Source: Candidatus Dormiibacterota bacterium (GTDB taxonomy: Bacteria > Chloroflexota > Dormibacteria > Dormibacterales > Dormibacteraceae). From it: a DNA stretch of 32,500 nucleotides. Numbering within the stretch: position 1 is the first letter of the stretch; every line of letters begins with the position of its first letter. The stretch covers positions 83,354 through 115,853 of the forward strand of contig CATPBP010000007.1 in NCBI GenBank assembly GCA_955652675.1, read 5' to 3'. This document shows positions 14,206 to 32,500 of this stretch, in pieces. The translations under genes and the position numbers were made by a program. The notes beneath the pieces are model-generated. The model searched no databases. It was not told where the DNA came from and worked only from the letters and a program-made list of their open reading frames with translations.

Positions 14206-15582
14206 TTGGCGCCGATCACGTCCCCGCCTAGGCAGGAGGGACGGGTCCCGCCGCACGACCTGGAGGCCGAGACCTCGGTCCTGGGAGCGATCCTCCTCGA
14301 CCAGTCGGCCATCACCCGAGTCCTCGACTTCCTCTATCCCGAGGACTTCTACCGGGAGAACAACGGGCACCTCTACCGGGCGGCCCAGAACCTCTTTCGC
14401 GAGGGGGAGCCGATCGACAACGTCACCCTCGCGGCCGAGCTCGAGAAGCTGGGCGTCCTGGAGCGGGTGGGCGGCCGGGCGCAGCTGGCGCTGCTCCAGG
14501 AGTCGGTCCCGACCGCTGCGAACGTGGAGTACTACGGCCGGATCGTCAAGGATCGGGCCTACAAGCGCCGGCTGATAACGGCCGGCTCCCAGGTCACCGG
14601 CCTTGGCTTCGAGGAGTCGATCGACGCCGAGGAGGCGGTCAACCAGGCCCAGTCGCACGTCTACGCCATCTCAGACGATCGGGTGGGCGGCGGCATGGAA
14701 CGCCTCTACGACCTCCTCAAGCCGGCTATGGACCGCATCGATGCCCAGATGGCGGCCGGTGGGGGGGTGATCGGCATCGCGTCCGGTTTCCACGACCTGG
14801 ACCGGATGACCAACGGCTACAAGCCCTCCGACCTGATCGTGATCGCGGGCCGTCCCAGCATGGGGAAGACCTCGTTCGTGCTGAACGTCGCCTTGAACGC
14901 GGCGGTCGAGCAGCGAAAGCCCGTCGCCGTGTTCAGTCTCGAGATGTCGAAGGAACAGCTGGTAGAGCGAATGCTCTGCGAGCAGGCGAGGATCGATGCC
15001 CAGCGGCTTCACCGCGGGATGCTCAGTGACGTCGAGTACGAGCGCCTGGCGGGCGCGCTCGGGCCGCTGGGGGACGCTCCCATCTACATCGACGACTCTC
15101 CGACCCTGGACGACCTGACGCTGCGTCTCAAGTCCAGGCAGGCGCGTGCGAGGGAGGGGATCGAGATGATCGTCCTCGACTACCTCCAGCTGATGCACGG
15201 GCGAGGCCGCAGCGACGACAGCAACCGCGTCCAGGAGGTATCCGCCATCTCGCGCGGCCTGAAGTCGATCGCCCGCGAGCTGAAGGTGCCGGTCATCGCC
15301 ATCTCGCAGCTCTCGCGAGCGCCTGAGGCTCGCCCCGACAAGCGGCCCATCCTCAGTGACCTGAGGGAGAGCGGGAGCATCGAGCAGGACGCCGACATCG
15401 TCATGTTCCTTTACCGCGACGACTACTACAAGAAGGACTCGGAGAAGCCGGGGATCGCCGAGATCATCGTAGCGAAGCATCGAAACGGACCCACCGGCAC
15501 CGTCGACCTGCTCTTCAGGAAGGAGCTGACGCGCTTCGAGAACCTCGACGCTCGGCGAATGGCGCCGAGGGACGAGGGCTGA
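14206..15582 (+). CDS. dnaB: Replicative DNA helicase DnaB
   Basis: This 458-residue hexameric 5'-3' helicase acts at the replication fork. The N-terminal domain (about 15-120: PPHDLEAETSVLGAILLD onward) forms the collar that contacts primase. The RecA-like motor has Walker A GRPSMGKTS near residue 216, FSLEMSKEQL near 243, Walker B IVLDYLQLM near 324 and the arginine-finger region near the C-terminus (AKHRNGPTGTVDLLF). No intein is present. It starts at a TTG 7 nt after rplI; no better in-frame start precedes the conserved PPHDLEAE block. Its N-terminal domain is strikingly similar to that of the island protein at 27129-29204. Confidence 0.95.
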   Translation: MAPITSPPRQEGRVPPHDLEAETSVLGAILLDQSAITRVLDFLYPEDFYRENNGHLYRAAQNLFREGEPIDNVTLAAELEKLGVLERVGGRAQLALLQESVPTAANVEYYGRIVKDRAYKRRLITAGSQVTGLGFEESIDAEEAVNQAQSHVYAISDDRVGGGMERLYDLLKPAMDRIDAQMAAGGGVIGIASGFHDLDRMTNGYKPSDLIVIAGRPSMGKTSFVLNVALNAAVEQRKPVAVFSLEMSKEQLVERMLCEQARIDAQRLHRGMLSDVEYERLAGALGPLGDAPIYIDDSPTLDDLTLRLKSRQARAREGIEMIVLDYLQLMHGRGRSDDSNRVQEVSAISRGLKSIARELKVPVIAISQLSRAPEARPDKRPILSDLRESGSIEQDADIVMFLYRDDYYKKDSEKPGIAEIIVAKHRNGPTGTVDLLFRKELTRFENLDARRMAPRDEG

Positions 15583-24703: not shown

Positions 24704-24779
24704 TGGGCGGTGGCCAAGTTGGTAAGGCGCCTGACTCTGGATCAGGAGATCGAGGGTTCAAATCCTTCCCGCCCAGCCA
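24704..24779 (+). tRNA. tRNA-Gln (anticodon CTG)
   Basis: A full cloverleaf can be folded by eye: acceptor TGGGCGG / CCGCCCA with discriminator G, D-arm GCC...GGC, anticodon stem CCTGA / TCAGG with loop CTCTGGA (anticodon CTG at 24737-24739), and T-arm GAGGG-TTCAAAT-CCTTC. The CCA end is encoded at 24777-24779. An integrase gene follows 135 bp downstream, so the 3' end of this tRNA is the probable attachment site of the island to its right. Confidence 0.93.
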
Positions 24780-24914: not shown

Positions 24915-25841
24915 GTGAGCAAAGTGTCGGTAGTCGAGTCCGCCCCCGACACGCCCCTTCGCGGGCTGGCGAGCGACTGGCTGGCGTCAGCCCGGGCGGG
25001 GGGCAAGAGCCCGAGGACGCTTGAGGCATATCGCTGGCCCCTCTACAAGGTGCTGATCCCGGCGTGCGAGGGCGCGGGCCTCGACCATCCGTCCAAGATC
25101 GACCAGCGCTTCCTCGACAGGCTCAACGCGTCCTTGCTGGACTCGCGACGGTCGCCGGCGTCGGTACGCTCCTATCTCCGCCAGATAAACGTCTTCCTTC
25201 GCTGGTGCGAGCGGGAGGGCGAGGGATCGCGAGCGACGGCTCAGCTCCCGAAGGTACCCAAGAAGCTTTTGGCAGTCCTGAGCCGCGACGAGATCAAGAC
25301 CCTGGAGGACGCGGCGGTCACTGAGCGCGACAAACTGGTCATCCGGACGCTGGCCGACACCGGGCTGCGGCTGGGGGAACTGCTGGGCCTGCGGGTCGGC
25401 GACATCGAGCAGGACGGCGCCGGCTGGACGCTCCGGGTGATGGGGAAGGGGAGCAGAGAGCGCCGGGTCAACATCGCCCCCGCCTTGGGTCGCCGCCTGA
25501 AGCGGTACGCCGACCGCGGACGGCCGCGGGGCGTGAACACCGACCGGCTCTTTTTGACCACTAGGCGCAGCCCGCGCACCGGCGTCTTCGGACCGCTGAA
25601 CAAGCGGACGACCGAGATCATGATGAAGGTCGTGGCCGACCGTGCCGGCGTCGATCCCAAGCGGGTCTGGCCCCATGTGCTCAGGCACAGTTACTGCACG
25701 CACCTGCTCCAGCGGAACGTCTCGCCTGCCAAGGTCATGCAGCTGCTCGGACACAGCTCGATGGAGATGGTCATGACCGTATACAACCAGTTGCGGCCGG
25801 CCGATTCGATGGACGACGTGCTGCGAGCGCTGTCCGACTGA
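24915..25841 (+). CDS. Tyrosine recombinase / integrase of the island
   Basis: This 308-residue protein has an N-terminal SAM-like core-binding domain (about 16-105) and a C-terminal catalytic domain with all active-site residues: Arg152 (TGLRLGEL), Lys178 (GKGSRERR), His254 and Arg257 (HVLRHSYCTHLL), His280 (LLGHSS) and nucleophile Tyr290 (TVYNQL). It looks like an XerC/D-sized phage or island integrase without an arm-binding extension of obvious size. The position just after tRNA-Gln and ahead of plasmid-type genes makes it the likely integrase of this element. It uses a GTG start. Confidence 0.92.
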   Translation: MSKVSVVESAPDTPLRGLASDWLASARAGGKSPRTLEAYRWPLYKVLIPACEGAGLDHPSKIDQRFLDRLNASLLDSRRSPASVRSYLRQINVFLRWCEREGEGSRATAQLPKVPKKLLAVLSRDEIKTLEDAAVTERDKLVIRTLADTGLRLGELLGLRVGDIEQDGAGWTLRVMGKGSRERRVNIAPALGRRLKRYADRGRPRGVNTDRLFLTTRRSPRTGVFGPLNKRTTEIMMKVVADRAGVDPKRVWPHVLRHSYCTHLLQRNVSPAKVMQLLGHSSMEMVMTVYNQLRPADSMDDVLRALSD

Positions 25842-26261
25842 CCTAAGGACATCTCCAGGCATTCCACAGGTAGCAATGGCTTACAGACCCTTGCACGTCG
25901 TTGTCCGCGAGCGCAGGGATCGTCGGAGCTCCGAAAGCGGTCGACAGCGCTACCTGGGCCACTAATCGATGCTGCCGCAGCGTCAATAGGCGACTACTGG
26001 CTCGTCAACCGCCCCTTTGTTCGTGCTCTGCTTGGTTCCGCCTCCGACTGCAATCCGCGTCGGAGAGGACTTACAGCATCCTAGGGAGCAGGCTACGGTG
26101 CACCGTAGCAACGGGAGAACCAACTCCACACACGAGTCTTTCCGCTGACCGCCAGAGTGCGTAGCAACCTGCTTCCTCCACAAACCGTTGATCCCAGCGA
26201 ATACTGCCGAGGGGTATCGTCACGCGCGGTACTTGTAGTAACATCTGTAGCGGATTCGGAC
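25842..26261. other. Non-coding stretch after the integrase
   Basis: In 420 bp I find no convincing gene on either strand. It contains a perfect 18-bp palindrome (26092-26109) and a 7-bp stem CTCCGAC/GTCGGAG around 26042-26065. Base composition is visibly less GC-rich than the flanking chromosome, and so is the decayed gene that follows. Confidence 0.4.
26092..26109. promoter_or_regulatory. Perfect 18-bp palindrome
   Basis: GCTACGGTGCACCGTAGC is perfectly self-complementary with no spacer, the form expected of a dimeric repressor operator. It lies 250 bp after the integrase and 150 bp before the decayed membrane gene. The binding protein is unknown. Confidence 0.45.
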
Positions 26262-26941
26262 GTGCCGAAGCCTGCTGATCTCTATGTAAGCGTGACGACC
26301 CTCTTTGCGGTCGTGCTCCCCGGAGCAATACTCGCCTATTTCGCTCAGTCACTGGCTCAACCATACTTCGACAACCACACCTTCCCAGCCCTTCACTGAG
26401 ATGTGCAATACTGACTCGCCTTTGCAGTGGCCTCATATTTGTGCGGGCAGGCCGTGTACGTGCTCGGTGCTCTAGTAATGGAGCCGATATATCTTGTGAT
26501 CATGGAGATATCGTCGCGCGCGCAACTGTTTAAAGTCTTTCCCATTGAGGAGTTGTTTGAGGAGGTCCGAGCGCGGCTGCAAGAGTATCCCGGGTTCACG
26601 GGAGGCCAACGCTCCACTTGGGCGCGAACCGTGCTCCGGCTCTACTTTCCCAACGCTGCAGTGGAGTCAGACCGTCTCGAGGCCGATGCAAAGTTCTTTC
26701 GCAGCTTTAGTGTGGTCGCTCTTCTCGTTGCCATCAAATTCTTTCTTCCGCCAACAGCCATAGCACCTGCCATAGGATCAATAATTCTGGCGCTTGTCTC
26801 AGTGGTGTTGTACGCTTCCCGCCGGCTGGCTGTCTCAAGGCTGACTACCGTGCCTTCGTTATTCTTTCGCATCACAATCGCTCGATGGAAGTGCAGCAAG
26901 CGCAGCAAACACAGCAGCAAGACATCGGCCCAGAACCCTAG
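26262..26941 (+). pseudogene. Decayed membrane protein gene (two in-frame stops and a frameshift)
   Basis: From GTG 26262 the frame reads MPKPADLYVSVTTLFAVVLPGAILAYF, a hydrophobic start. It meets TGA at 26397 and again at 26412, then continues in the same frame as LAFAVASYLCGQAVYVLGALVMEPIY with good protein character and a second hydrophobic pair near 26715-26815. Near 26842 the frame must shift by one base to continue ADYRAFVILSHHNRSMEVQQAQQ and end at TAG 26939. Restoring two codons and one base gives one membrane protein of about 225 residues of unknown function. Lower GC than its neighbours suggests foreign origin. A shorter product from GTG 26427 remains possible. Confidence 0.5.
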
Positions 26942-27128
26942 GCCGAGACGCACGCAATTCATAATTTCCCACCGCCGCCATACCGCGCGAGCTCGAGCGC
27001 GTCCGCTCTTTACAGGGGTCGAGCTAAGAGAGCTCGCCGCCTCGTCATAGCAGACTTGTTCCTGCTATAAGGTGCGACGGATCGTTGGGGTCGCAATGGT
27101 GACCTACCACGTCGGGGACGGGCGCGGG

Positions 27129-29204
27129 TCATTCGCGGGCGTCCGTTACCGCAGAACCCGCAAAACCCGCAGAACCGCTCCCCTCGCCAAGGTTTTGCGA
27201 GTTTTGCGGGTTTCGCGCATACGGATTGACGCGGAACCGCTGGCTCGGCCGTCCGCCGGTGGGACTGTGAGCAGACGGCACCGGAGCCAGATACTCGTGG
27301 GCCACGAGCAGGGCGAGAGCCGGGTCCAGGTCGGTGACCTTCGGAACGCGCGCGCTGCGCAACTGGTCGAACGCGGCCCGGCGGCTGAACTCGGTTAGAC
27401 CGCGATCGTGAATCCAGCGGAGGACGCGGCCGGCCTGCTCGACGACTGGGTCCGCCCCCACGAGTGCGAAGACCGCTCGAGCGTGGGCGATCGCGTAGTC
27501 GCCAATGCTGATCGCTGCCTCGACCGCGTCAGTTGGCACCTCATCGCCCCACTCTCCACGAACGTTCCTACCCAGATGGACCAGGGCTGCGACCCGGGCG
27601 ATGGCGCCCGTCAGCTTGCCAGCCCAGTCTGCCATCGACCGCAGGTCCCGTTCCTCAGCTAGGCGGGGTTCGAGGCGGGCGGCGTAGTCATTCAGCATCC
27701 GATGACTGGCTGGGGCGAAGCGGATCAGCACGCCCGCGGCGGCAGCCTCGATGCTGCGGGCCAGGATGCAGAGGTTGGCCGCGTAATCATCCGCGAGGTT
27801 ACGGGGCACCGGATCGGGGTCCGCCCGGCGGCTTCCCATCCGGCTCACAGGCAGCGCATAGAGGAACCGTGCGAGGATTCCCAGGGCTCGGAGCTCCGGC
27901 ACATCTGCCATCGCCCGCAGCACGTCAGGCTGAACGGCTAGCCCGATGGTGAGCGCTGGTCGCTTCACATACTCCGGCGGTCGGCCCTTCCGGTCGACGC
28001 GGAGGCGGTCACCAGCGTGGCCTTTCAGATAGACGTCCAGGTTGGCGCCCGTTCCGCGCGCCGTCGAATACCGGCCTGCCATCTGGCCGAAGACACCGCC
28101 CTCAGCGCTGAGCACCGCCAAACGGCCGTCTTGCTCTGCCAGCAGAGAGGCTAGCGCCTCCGGAGTGGCATCGTCCGCGAGGAGACGGTAGGCGGCGGGC
28201 ACGATCACGGCTTCGGCTTCTGCGGCCAGCTGCGTGGCGCGCTCGATAGCCATCTCTCGAGCGCTGGACGTCTTCGCCTTGGCCGCCTCGGCCTGCGCCG
28301 ATTCGACGGCGCGCTCCAACGCACGGCGCCGGGTGGCCGCCGCAGTGACGATTGGAGCCAATGCTCGGGAGCGGTCCTCTTCGAAATCCGAGAGGGGCGC
28401 AGTGGCGGCCTCGAACACGGCCGATTTGCGCTCTCCGGGTGGCAGCGCGACCAGCACGTAGAGGTTCAACGGTTCCTCCCACCCATGCCGCACCTCTACC
28501 CGGACGCGGCCTCCGGCACACGTGGCCAGACCTGCGAGCACGATCATCCCAGCCAGATCCGGTGGCGTTTGTGTCGCCTCGGCCAGTGCCGCTGCGTAGG
28601 CGGCGCACCAGCCGGGTAGAGCCTCGAGTGGGAACGCGGGCAGCGCAGCCGCGTCCAGCAGCGGCAGCGGCGCATTCCATAGGGCCTCTCGGGTGGCCGC
28701 AGCTCGCAGGATGTCGGCGCGATCGGACAGCGCCACCACGTCGACGCCGGGATCGTGAGCAGCTGCTGCCAGCTGCCGCGCTTCCTCAGCGATGCGGCGC
28801 TTGGTGGCCAGATCTCGGACCTCTCGGGCGTAGTGCTCAACGTTGGCGGCGGTCGGCACTGACTCCTGGAGCAGCGCCAGGTGTGCGCGTCCGCCGATCC
28901 GCTCCAGCATGCCATTCCGCTCGAGCTCGGCCGCCAACGTGACGTTGTCGATCGGCTGGCTCCGCTGGGCCAGGGCCAGCGCGGCCTGGTAGATCGTCGC
29001 GTTGTTCTCGCGAAAGAAGTCGCCTTCATCCACCAGATCCCGGGCTCGGGCGATGACATGGCGGTCGAGGAGGATGGAGCCAAGCACCGCGACCTCGGCC
29101 TCGAGGTTGTGGGGCGGCACGCCATTGAACGACAGCACATGGAAGGTGGCGGCAGGGTCGCCGGCGGTGCGGAGACTGCCGCCGACCGGGCGCTCACGAG
29201 TCAT
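27129..29204 (-). CDS. DnaB N-terminal domain - DUF3987 fusion, island replication ATPase
   Basis: This is a 691-residue protein. Residues about 29-140 are a DnaB N-terminal domain (PPHNLEAEVAVLGSILLD, RENN, PIDNVTLAAELE, LALLQESVPTAANVE), almost the same blocks as the chromosomal DnaB at 14206. Residues about 190-600 are DUF3987, a primase/helicase-type P-loop ATPase of mobile elements, with Walker A LPPGERKSAVF at 254-264 and the SAEGGVFGQMAGRYS segment near 365. The C-terminus (about 600-665) looks like a winged helix, then a low-complexity tail NPQNSQN...GSAGFAGSA. DUF3987 is more often paired with primase domains. Here the primase-contacting DnaB collar replaces them, which suggests recruitment of the host primase. 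It overlaps the upstream small gene by 11 bp. Confidence 0.8.
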   Translation of the reverse strand: MTRERPVGGSLRTAGDPAATFHVLSFNGVPPHNLEAEVAVLGSILLDRHVIARARDLVDEGDFFRENNATIYQAALALAQRSQPIDNVTLAAELERNGMLERIGGRAHLALLQESVPTAANVEHYAREVRDLATKRRIAEEARQLAAAAHDPGVDVVALSDRADILRAAATREALWNAPLPLLDAAALPAFPLEALPGWCAAYAAALAEATQTPPDLAGMIVLAGLATCAGGRVRVEVRHGWEEPLNLYVLVALPPGERKSAVFEAATAPLSDFEEDRSRALAPIVTAAATRRRALERAVESAQAEAAKAKTSSAREMAIERATQLAAEAEAVIVPAAYRLLADDATPEALASLLAEQDGRLAVLSAEGGVFGQMAGRYSTARGTGANLDVYLKGHAGDRLRVDRKGRPPEYVKRPALTIGLAVQPDVLRAMADVPELRALGILARFLYALPVSRMGSRRADPDPVPRNLADDYAANLCILARSIEAAAAGVLIRFAPASHRMLNDYAARLEPRLAEERDLRSMADWAGKLTGAIARVAALVHLGRNVRGEWGDEVPTDAVEAAISIGDYAIAHARAVFALVGADPVVEQAGRVLRWIHDRGLTEFSRRAAFDQLRSARVPKVTDLDPALALLVAHEYLAPVPSAHSPTGGRPSQRFRVNPYARNPQNSQNLGEGSGSAGFAGSAVTDARE
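27155..27212 (-). repeat. 22-bp coding hairpin at the 3' end of the DUF3987 gene
   Basis: Arms 27155-27176 and 27191-27212 are inverted repeats matching at 20 of 22 positions, around a 14-nt loop. They encode the NPQNSQN and GSAGFAGS parts of the tail. Each arm is itself built of AACCCGCAAA-like direct repeats. It is far stronger than a typical coding-region structure. Confidence 0.7.
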
Positions 29205-29400
29205 GGCCTTCGGTCATCGCGGGCTCGGCCTGCTCGAGGTGGGCAAGACTTCGGGCGCAGCCGGCGCACATGTGGGGCGTACGACGGCCGCCCTCGCGAC
29301 CCGTGCGGGCGAGCACGGGCCGCATGCAGAGGGCCTGGTCCTGGCCTGGAGGCGCGAGGTGCATTCCTCGACCGCAAGCGGTAACGACTTCCCAGCGCAT
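29194..29400 (-). CDS. Small Cys-rich (zinc-ribbon-like) protein
   Basis: This 68-residue protein has Cys9, His14, Cys25, His43, Cys45 and Cys48. The last three form HMCAGC, a plausible metal-binding knuckle. Codon third positions are strongly GC-biased in this frame, which supports it as real. The ATG overlaps the upstream stop by 1 bp (TGATG), and its own end overlaps the DUF3987 gene by 11 bp. I do not recognise the family. Small zinc-binding proteins are common next to replication genes of such elements. Confidence 0.6.
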   Translation of the reverse strand: MRWEVVTACGRGMHLAPPGQDQALCMRPVLARTGREGGRRTPHMCAGCARSLAHLEQAEPAMTEGHDS

Positions 29401-29600
29401 CAGGACGCCCCTTCTGGGGCAGCCGCCGCCAGGTCTCCAATGCCTCCCAGAGGTGCCCGTAGAGACCGCTCTCGACGGCCTCCTGGGCTCGGCGCCCGTG
29501 AGCGCTCTGAGTCCTCGGCGAGCAGCGGCTCGATGTAGAGCTGGAGGAGCTTGCCGTGCTGCTCGAGGTTCAGGACATTGGCGACTACCTGCGGGGCCAT
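29400..29600 (-). CDS. Small island protein, probably frameshifted
   Basis: The start at ATG 29600 is supported by GGGAGG 7 nt upstream. The first 33 residues (VVANVLNLEQHGKLLQLYIEPLLAED) look like a real helical protein. After a CCC run near 29497 the coding character passes to the next frame, which reads QEAVESGLYGHLWEALETWRRLPQKG, while the annotated frame becomes Pro/Arg/Gly-rich (APSPGGRRERS). A one-base insertion, biological or from sequencing, is likely. The gene overlaps both neighbours (16 bp and 1 bp). Unknown family. Confidence 0.45.
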   Translation of the reverse strand: MAPQVVANVLNLEQHGKLLQLYIEPLLAEDSERSRAPSPGGRRERSLRAPLGGIGDLAAAAPEGAS

Positions 29601-29968
29601 GGCCGGTCCTCCCACCCTTGCACCAGGCTCCGGATCTCGATGTCAGACAGCCCCTCGGCCCAGGCCAGGAGGACCAGGCCTTCAGCGCTTACCAGACCCT
29701 GGCGGCGCCGGAGCACGTGGGCGAGCTCGCGCCGCAGGGGTTGGGGCGCTGGGCGATGCCAGCCGCCCCGTCGCGTCAGGCGAATGTCGGCGGCCATCAC
29801 TCGAGCTCCGCCGGCCGGCTTGAGCTGCTCGACCACTTCCGCCAACTCGTCGGCGATCGCAGCGGACGTCATCGCCTGGAAGCGGTGCAGTTCCTCCGGA
29901 CTCGCCTCCCGGATCTCACTCAGGGTGGGCAGGCAGTCCTTGACCGGTCGGGCGGTGAAGCTGGCCAT
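29585..29968 (-). CDS. Hypothetical island protein
   Basis: This 127-residue protein is mostly alpha-helical by composition, with an acidic, Leu-rich middle (AMTSAAIADELAEVVEQLKPAGG) and a basic section (RRELAHVLRRRQGLVSAEGL), ending RPWPRR. No known motif is visible. It is coupled to the upstream gene by TGATG and overlaps the downstream one by 16 bp, so it belongs to the replication-type operon that ends in the DnaB-N/DUF3987 gene. Confidence 0.6.
   Translation of the reverse strand: MASFTARPVKDCLPTLSEIREASPEELHRFQAMTSAAIADELAEVVEQLKPAGGARVMAADIRLTRRGGWHRPAPQPLRRELAHVLRRRQGLVSAEGLVLLAWAEGLSDIEIRSLVQGWEDRPWPRR

Positions 29969-31381: not shown

Positions 31382-32500
<1,119 letters not shown>

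Follow-up and report, generated by a model that had tools for sequence, protein, structure and literature searches.

Mobile-element proteins of the DUF3987 family (PF13148, the 'YfjI family') were earlier predicted to form a novel helicase family, on the grounds of their fusions to primases (PMC5862659). DUF3987 is likewise used to replicate small integrated elements in the PICMI and P4-like satellite primase-helicases (PMC10803314), and the Prim-Pol and RepPP module of the AICEs, integrative elements of actinomycetes, in the part of its description drawn on here, also places a replication ATPase in an integrase-bearing element (PMC3218068). Two residues of Geobacillus DnaB, Ile119 and Ile125, have been reported as key for binding of the primase DnaG (PMC2761005). 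Here we describe an integrated element in which these two lines meet in one protein, a DUF3987 ATPase with a DnaB collar at its N-terminus. Coordinates refer to the window, the whole stretch of 32,500 nucleotides that was analysed, unless a locus is named. The fusion gene and its domains are as follows.

27129..29204, minus strand: collar-DUF3987 fusion protein, 691 aa (ORF, Pfam, AlphaFold2 model)
28812..29117, minus strand: DnaB_N globular collar domain, residues 30-131 (PF00772, E 7e-30; DnaB N-terminal domain fold match)
28674..28811, minus strand: residues 132-177, the rest of the DnaB helical hairpin and a linker-helix-like segment (predicted secondary structure; PDB DnaB alignments)
27465..28571, minus strand: DUF3987 ATPase domain, residues 212-580 (PF13148, E 2e-97; weak nearest folds are AAA+ replication ATPases)
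28422..28442, minus strand: Walker A-like PPGERKS, residues 255-261 (R and K present in each of 40 homologues)
28095..28124, minus strand: Walker B-like strand with ...LSAEGG, residues 361-370 (E368 at least 90% conserved; predicted strand 361-366)
27225..27449, minus strand: C-terminal winged-helix-like domain, residues about 586-660 (predicted structure; wHTH proteins among fold matches)

The initial annotation had placed a DnaB N-terminal domain at residues 29-140 and a DUF3987 ATPase with its own Walker A motif in the remainder. Its coordinates are right, with the gene on the minus strand, and the domain search that it proposed for the 691-residue protein bears out both assignments. In Pfam, DnaB_N matches over model positions 2-103 of 103 with 103.5 bits (cut-off 23), with a collar fold in the structural model, and DUF3987 over positions 1-363 of 364 with 327 bits (cut-off 27); a PDB sequence search agrees with these calls. 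PHROG profiles divide the protein similarly, with phrog_19 (DnaB-like) at residues 29-168 and phrog_2373 ('DNA helicase') at 166-604, and the DnaB models of NCBIfam match on the N-terminal part only. Against the DnaB helicase model TIGR00665 the fusion scores 89.6 bits, below the cut-off of 385, and neither Pfam nor NCBIfam gives a DnaB_C match. In the host genome as a whole DnaB_N occurs twice, in the fusion and in the resident DnaB, and DUF3987 once. An assembly chimera with the resident dnaB is ruled out by the 43% divergence of the collar and the continuous frame, and the architecture recurs in named Streptomyces strains.

The AlphaFold2 model of the fusion (49 aligned sequences, mean pLDDT 86) presents residues 29-150 confidently as a DnaB collar, which matches the DnaB N-terminal domain 2r5u with a TM-score of 0.90 by target length (prob 1.00). 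Helices are predicted at residues 122-149 and 162-177, with low confidence beyond residue 155, and DnaB alignments from the PDB extend to residue 164-172 of the fusion. In the model the captured segment spans the helical hairpin (helix 122-149), and it perhaps also includes the linker helix (162-177, a low-confidence prediction). The motor was modelled separately (pLDDT 90); a PDB sequence search gave no solved sequence relatives at E up to 1. In fold comparison with the PDB the motor comes closest to MCM, RuvB and ORC, the best E being just 2.5e-3 and the TM-scores low, while papillomavirus E1 and AAV Rep rank lower with weak E-values and winged-helix proteins match part of the motor model. 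These weak matches suggest an ATPase of the AAA+ type, consistent with an earlier grouping of DUF3987 (PMC5862659). Profile comparison (hhalign) of the DUF3987 motor with DnaB motor domains returned a probability of 0.2%, which amounts to no relation. The architecture thus represents a domain swap between unrelated motors, and a diverged ordinary DnaB is ruled out, as any DnaB_C relation is absent by Pfam, NCBIfam and profile comparison alike. The best viral fold match, which spans the whole model of the fusion, is the DUF3987 protein of Gordonia phage GMA2 (L268:1192-3369, minus strand). Its N-terminal region gave no sequence match to DnaB_N, and the gene next to it looks Prim-Pol-like when judged by eye.

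The source of the collar was sought among DnaB proteins, beginning with the one encoded elsewhere in the window.

14206..15582, plus strand: resident DnaB, a member of the collar's source lineage, outside the element (TIGR00665, 561 bits; tree)

As the initial annotation had noticed, this protein and the fusion collar share two blocks exactly, LALLQESVPTAANVE and PIDNVTLAAELE. Over residues 29-155 the collar and the resident DnaB agree in 73 of 127 amino acids (57%), and their DNA is 67% identical, which indicates that the capture was not recent. A search of 110 genomes across the class found the fusion in a single genome, all other collar matches being short and of DnaB type; identity of the collar reached 57% with DnaBs of the host family and about 40% with those of other families. 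Among 301 genomes from the phylum the best matches again came from the host family, followed by one other family of the class, and phage and plasmid collars reached at most about 44% identity among the best matches listed. A tree built from 66 collars, of the kind suggested earlier to examine a proposed capture of a host DnaB collar, nests the window copy in the host-family DnaBs (98/96) with a branch length of 0.87, in line with that proposal. Constraining the window collar to just outside the host family was not rejected (AU p 0.064), so the source is most safely given as the host family or a near relative of it, and the sequences point to capture from a DnaB of that origin. The collar retains 30 of the 41 positions conserved among host DnaBs against 39 of the 101 variable ones, which implies that it is under constraint.

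The element in which the fusion lies can be followed from a tRNA gene to the end of the contig.

24704..24779, plus strand: tRNA-Gln (CTG), likely integration target, left end of the element (ARAGORN)
24915..25841, plus strand: tyrosine integrase (PF00589, E 8e-28; phrog_1 integrase, E 4e-49)
29194..29400, minus strand: small Cys-rich ORF, 68 aa (ORF scan)
29585..29968, minus strand: element gene, 127 aa (ORF; no Pfam family above cut-off)
31382..32353, minus strand: replication-relaxation protein (PF13814, E 1e-17)

The integrase starts 135 bp downstream of the tRNA, and the stop of the Cys-rich ORF overlaps the fusion start by 11 bp, which suggests that these two genes form an operon. The region between integrase and fusion gene (25900-27100) has a GC content of 57% vs 69% and contains no recognisable genes. 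A second copy of the tRNA 3' end, as a right attachment site, was not found anywhere in the assembly, which implies that the right end of the element was not assembled; the contig ends at window position 32500 (contig 115853), inside the element. The assembled 3.3 kb upstream of the fusion contain no Prim-Pol, and even at E 10 none is found in the element as far as it is assembled; given the contig end a primase is possible in the missing part.

Using the DUF3987 part as the query, a scan of 84,980 species genomes yielded 80 loci. Seven of these, all from Streptomyces, have a Pfam-confirmed DnaB_N in frame, and in an eighth (L172, a Pseudonocardiales contig) DnaB_N is a separate gene abutting DUF3987 directly upstream, where the primase would usually lie, with no Prim-Pol. 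The search of other genomes contradicts the view of a one-off architecture: the full collar-DUF3987 fusion is present in at least 9 genomes of a Streptomyces sample of 296, and at least four more from the same set have a collar on a divergent DUF3987. The architecture is therefore not unique, and it recurs rarely in Streptomyces elements. Related proteins of this genus are listed below.

L250:4685-7081 (minus strand), L251:5812-7905, L252:5899-7812, L253:5827-7809: DnaB_N with divergent DUF3987; no Prim-Pol in the locus
L203:596-1624, L204:1363-2952, L205:1420-3267: DnaB_N with an AAA_25-type ATPase, three proteins

Streptomyces also encode tandem double DnaB_N proteins or short DnaB_N-only ORFs (L208:1459-2658, plus strand; L210:754-2265, minus strand; L207; L211), and no ATPase domain was found in these four.

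In the collar tree the Streptomyces fusion collars group with Streptomyces DnaB (100/100), and trees in which they are forced together with the window collar are rejected (AU p 0.0047 and 0.0079). At these values (0.005 and 0.008 when rounded) a single ancestral fusion spread by transfer is ruled out for the collar, and collar capture has thus happened at least twice. Trees of DUF3987 place the window outside both Streptomyces fusion clades, and at least three switches of fusion state are counted in the proteins sampled, at the window, in L244-L249 and in L130/L183. Viral contigs scanned with a single protein gave no match, and no collar is present in 41 viral contigs with DUF3987. The closest DUF3987 segment found, 58% identical and split by a frameshift, is on a viral contig (L070:1142-2682), in a locus where neither a collar nor Prim-Pol was found.

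The expectation that DUF3987 usually carries or neighbours a primase holds well: in 61 of the 69 loci without a fusion, mostly from Actinomycetota, Prim-Pol overlaps DUF3987 or is its immediate neighbour, and further cases are fused or involve Toprim. The eight loci without a Prim-Pol match include one with a fused Prim-Pol (L111), one with an adjacent DnaG zinc ribbon (L169) and the split collar of L172, the remaining five being L138, L153, L125, L157 and L134; weak Toprim matches are fused to DUF3987 in the relatives L038, L041 and L079. In the Streptomyces fusion loci, by comparison, Prim-Pol is beside DUF3987 in 1 of 14 (Streptomyces only, the window locus left out), with a Fisher p of 5e-9 that overstates the difference because the 14 loci fall in two clades and provide only two phylogenetically independent pairs. 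A phylogenetic pair test found the expected direction in 1.6 of 2 pairs on average, significance being unreachable with two pairs, and the exclusion is based on two or three fusion origins. At a relaxed E of 10, Prim-Pol is still absent from 13 of the 14 loci and from the four loci with a collar on divergent DUF3987; collar and Prim-Pol nearly exclude one another among the Streptomyces fusion loci. The sole Prim-Pol among the Streptomyces collar-DUF3987 elements (L244:6017-6679) is shortened, at 221 aa, and L244 may represent a transitional state. In several Streptomyces elements the fusion is flanked by the integrase on one side and by an FtsK-like or large uncharacterised ORF on the other.

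We propose that the fusion acts as the replication ATPase of the integrative element, and infer for it helicase activity, hexamer formation, DnaG binding and origin binding. The C-terminal winged helix would probably bind the element origin and place the motor there, where the DUF3987 motor would unwind DNA; the collar, in the usual position of the primase, would most likely dock host DnaG at its C-terminal domain, and after excision the element could thus prime its own replication with the host primase. We think it more likely than not that docking of host DnaG by the collar takes the place of a primase encoded by the element. The host genome encodes a single DnaG, with a DnaB_bind domain (PF10410) above cut-off. 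Recruitment of host primase had been suggested in the initial annotation, and such a role agrees with how rarely the fusion loci have a primase of their own, although the module proves to be a rarely recurring one rather than a singular invention. Judged from the alignment, the strongest point against docking lies in the contact residues, one of the two known ones being changed in the window copy: the equivalents of Ile119 and Ile125 are Ala139 and Leu145 in the window collar, and I and I/V in the host-family DnaBs. The Streptomyces fusions have I,I or I,L at these positions in 8 of 14 cases and A,L in three. L244 has A,L and is also the one fusion with Prim-Pol, which suggests that the DnaG contact may be weakened in some copies.

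The alanine in place of Ile119 would also suit a collar used for oligomer assembly only, which trimerises or hexamerises the DUF3987 motor and has lost its primase contact, and the N-terminal hairpin of DnaB is known to make dimers and organise the hexamer (PMC2761005). Most DUF3987 proteins have no collar, which implies that assembly does not need one, and the absence of Prim-Pol from the fusion loci would be left unexplained; we consider this unlikely. Loss of the element primase is not predicted if what the collar brings to the origin of the element is not primase but the initiator DnaA of the host, or some other host protein that partners the N-terminus of DnaB. The N-terminal region of DnaB does contact DnaA as well, and a collar taken from the lineage of the host would be suited to whichever partner is specific to that host, but we regard such a role as improbable.

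A free collar could in principle compete with the resident DnaB for DnaG, and the fusion might then be an inhibitor or decoy that titrates away the DnaG of the host or poisons replication, be it of the host or of a phage. Set against this, the ATPase is conserved, the gene lies in the replication locus of the element, and the Streptomyces fusions occupy the rep position next to xis-int, making a decoy very improbable. The long collar branch (0.87) and the truncation of the element by the contig end would be compatible with a functionless relic or chance fusion; with an intact 691-aa frame, a conserved collar core and recurrence at least twice elsewhere, we give this explanation next to no credence.

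If the collar does dock host DnaG, the primase dock of bacterial helicases would be transferable and able to function on a motor foreign to it, and mobile elements could switch between bringing a primase and borrowing that of the host. Such fusions would let one ask in a natural setting whether docking of the primase is by itself enough to couple priming to unwinding, and whether docking still functions on a motor that possibly runs on the other strand. Docking would also offer a candidate function for collar-bearing proteins otherwise labelled DUF3987 or DnaB-like. More generally, and at slightly less than even odds in our estimation, the site upstream of or N-terminal to DUF3987 may be a 'primase slot', filled repeatedly in different phyla by the DnaB collar of each element's own host; this would give chimeric helicases with a DnaB-type primase dock on an AAA+ motor, one that belongs to another superfamily and may travel the opposite way, and the host primase would replace that of the element.

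Consideration of the known systems shows where the fusion departs from them. It shares the collar and helical hairpin with the replicative helicase DnaB, whereas an unrelated ATPase takes the place of the RecA-type motor. It shares its motor with other DUF3987 mobile-element proteins, being 43-50% identical to members from Actinomycetota and viral contigs, but where those have a primase or Toprim partner it has an N-terminal DnaB collar instead. In the PICMI and P4-like satellites DUF3987 is modelled as part of the element's primase, and there is no collar (PMC10803314). The rep position of the Streptomyces fusions is where the Prim-Pol and RepPP of an AICE would be expected from the portions of the description used here; these assign a Prim-Pol to the AICE module, while a Prim-Pol gene is absent from 13 of the 14 fusion loci, and they make no mention of collar variants (PMC3218068). 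The window element has a tyrosine integrase (PF00589), as looked for in an AICE, but its host belongs to the Chloroflexota and is not an actinomycete. We take SCO4618/RepPP to be a DUF3987 protein. No description of the collar-DUF3987 architecture was found in the open literature searched, and the fusion may be catalogued without comment in domain databases. What makes the system of interest is that collars were captured convergently, each from the DnaB of the host lineage concerned, and that a primase has apparently been exchanged for a primase dock. Taken together, both domain families and the helicase prediction for DUF3987 were known before, and the fusion of the DnaB collar to DUF3987 is, as judged from the open literature, new.
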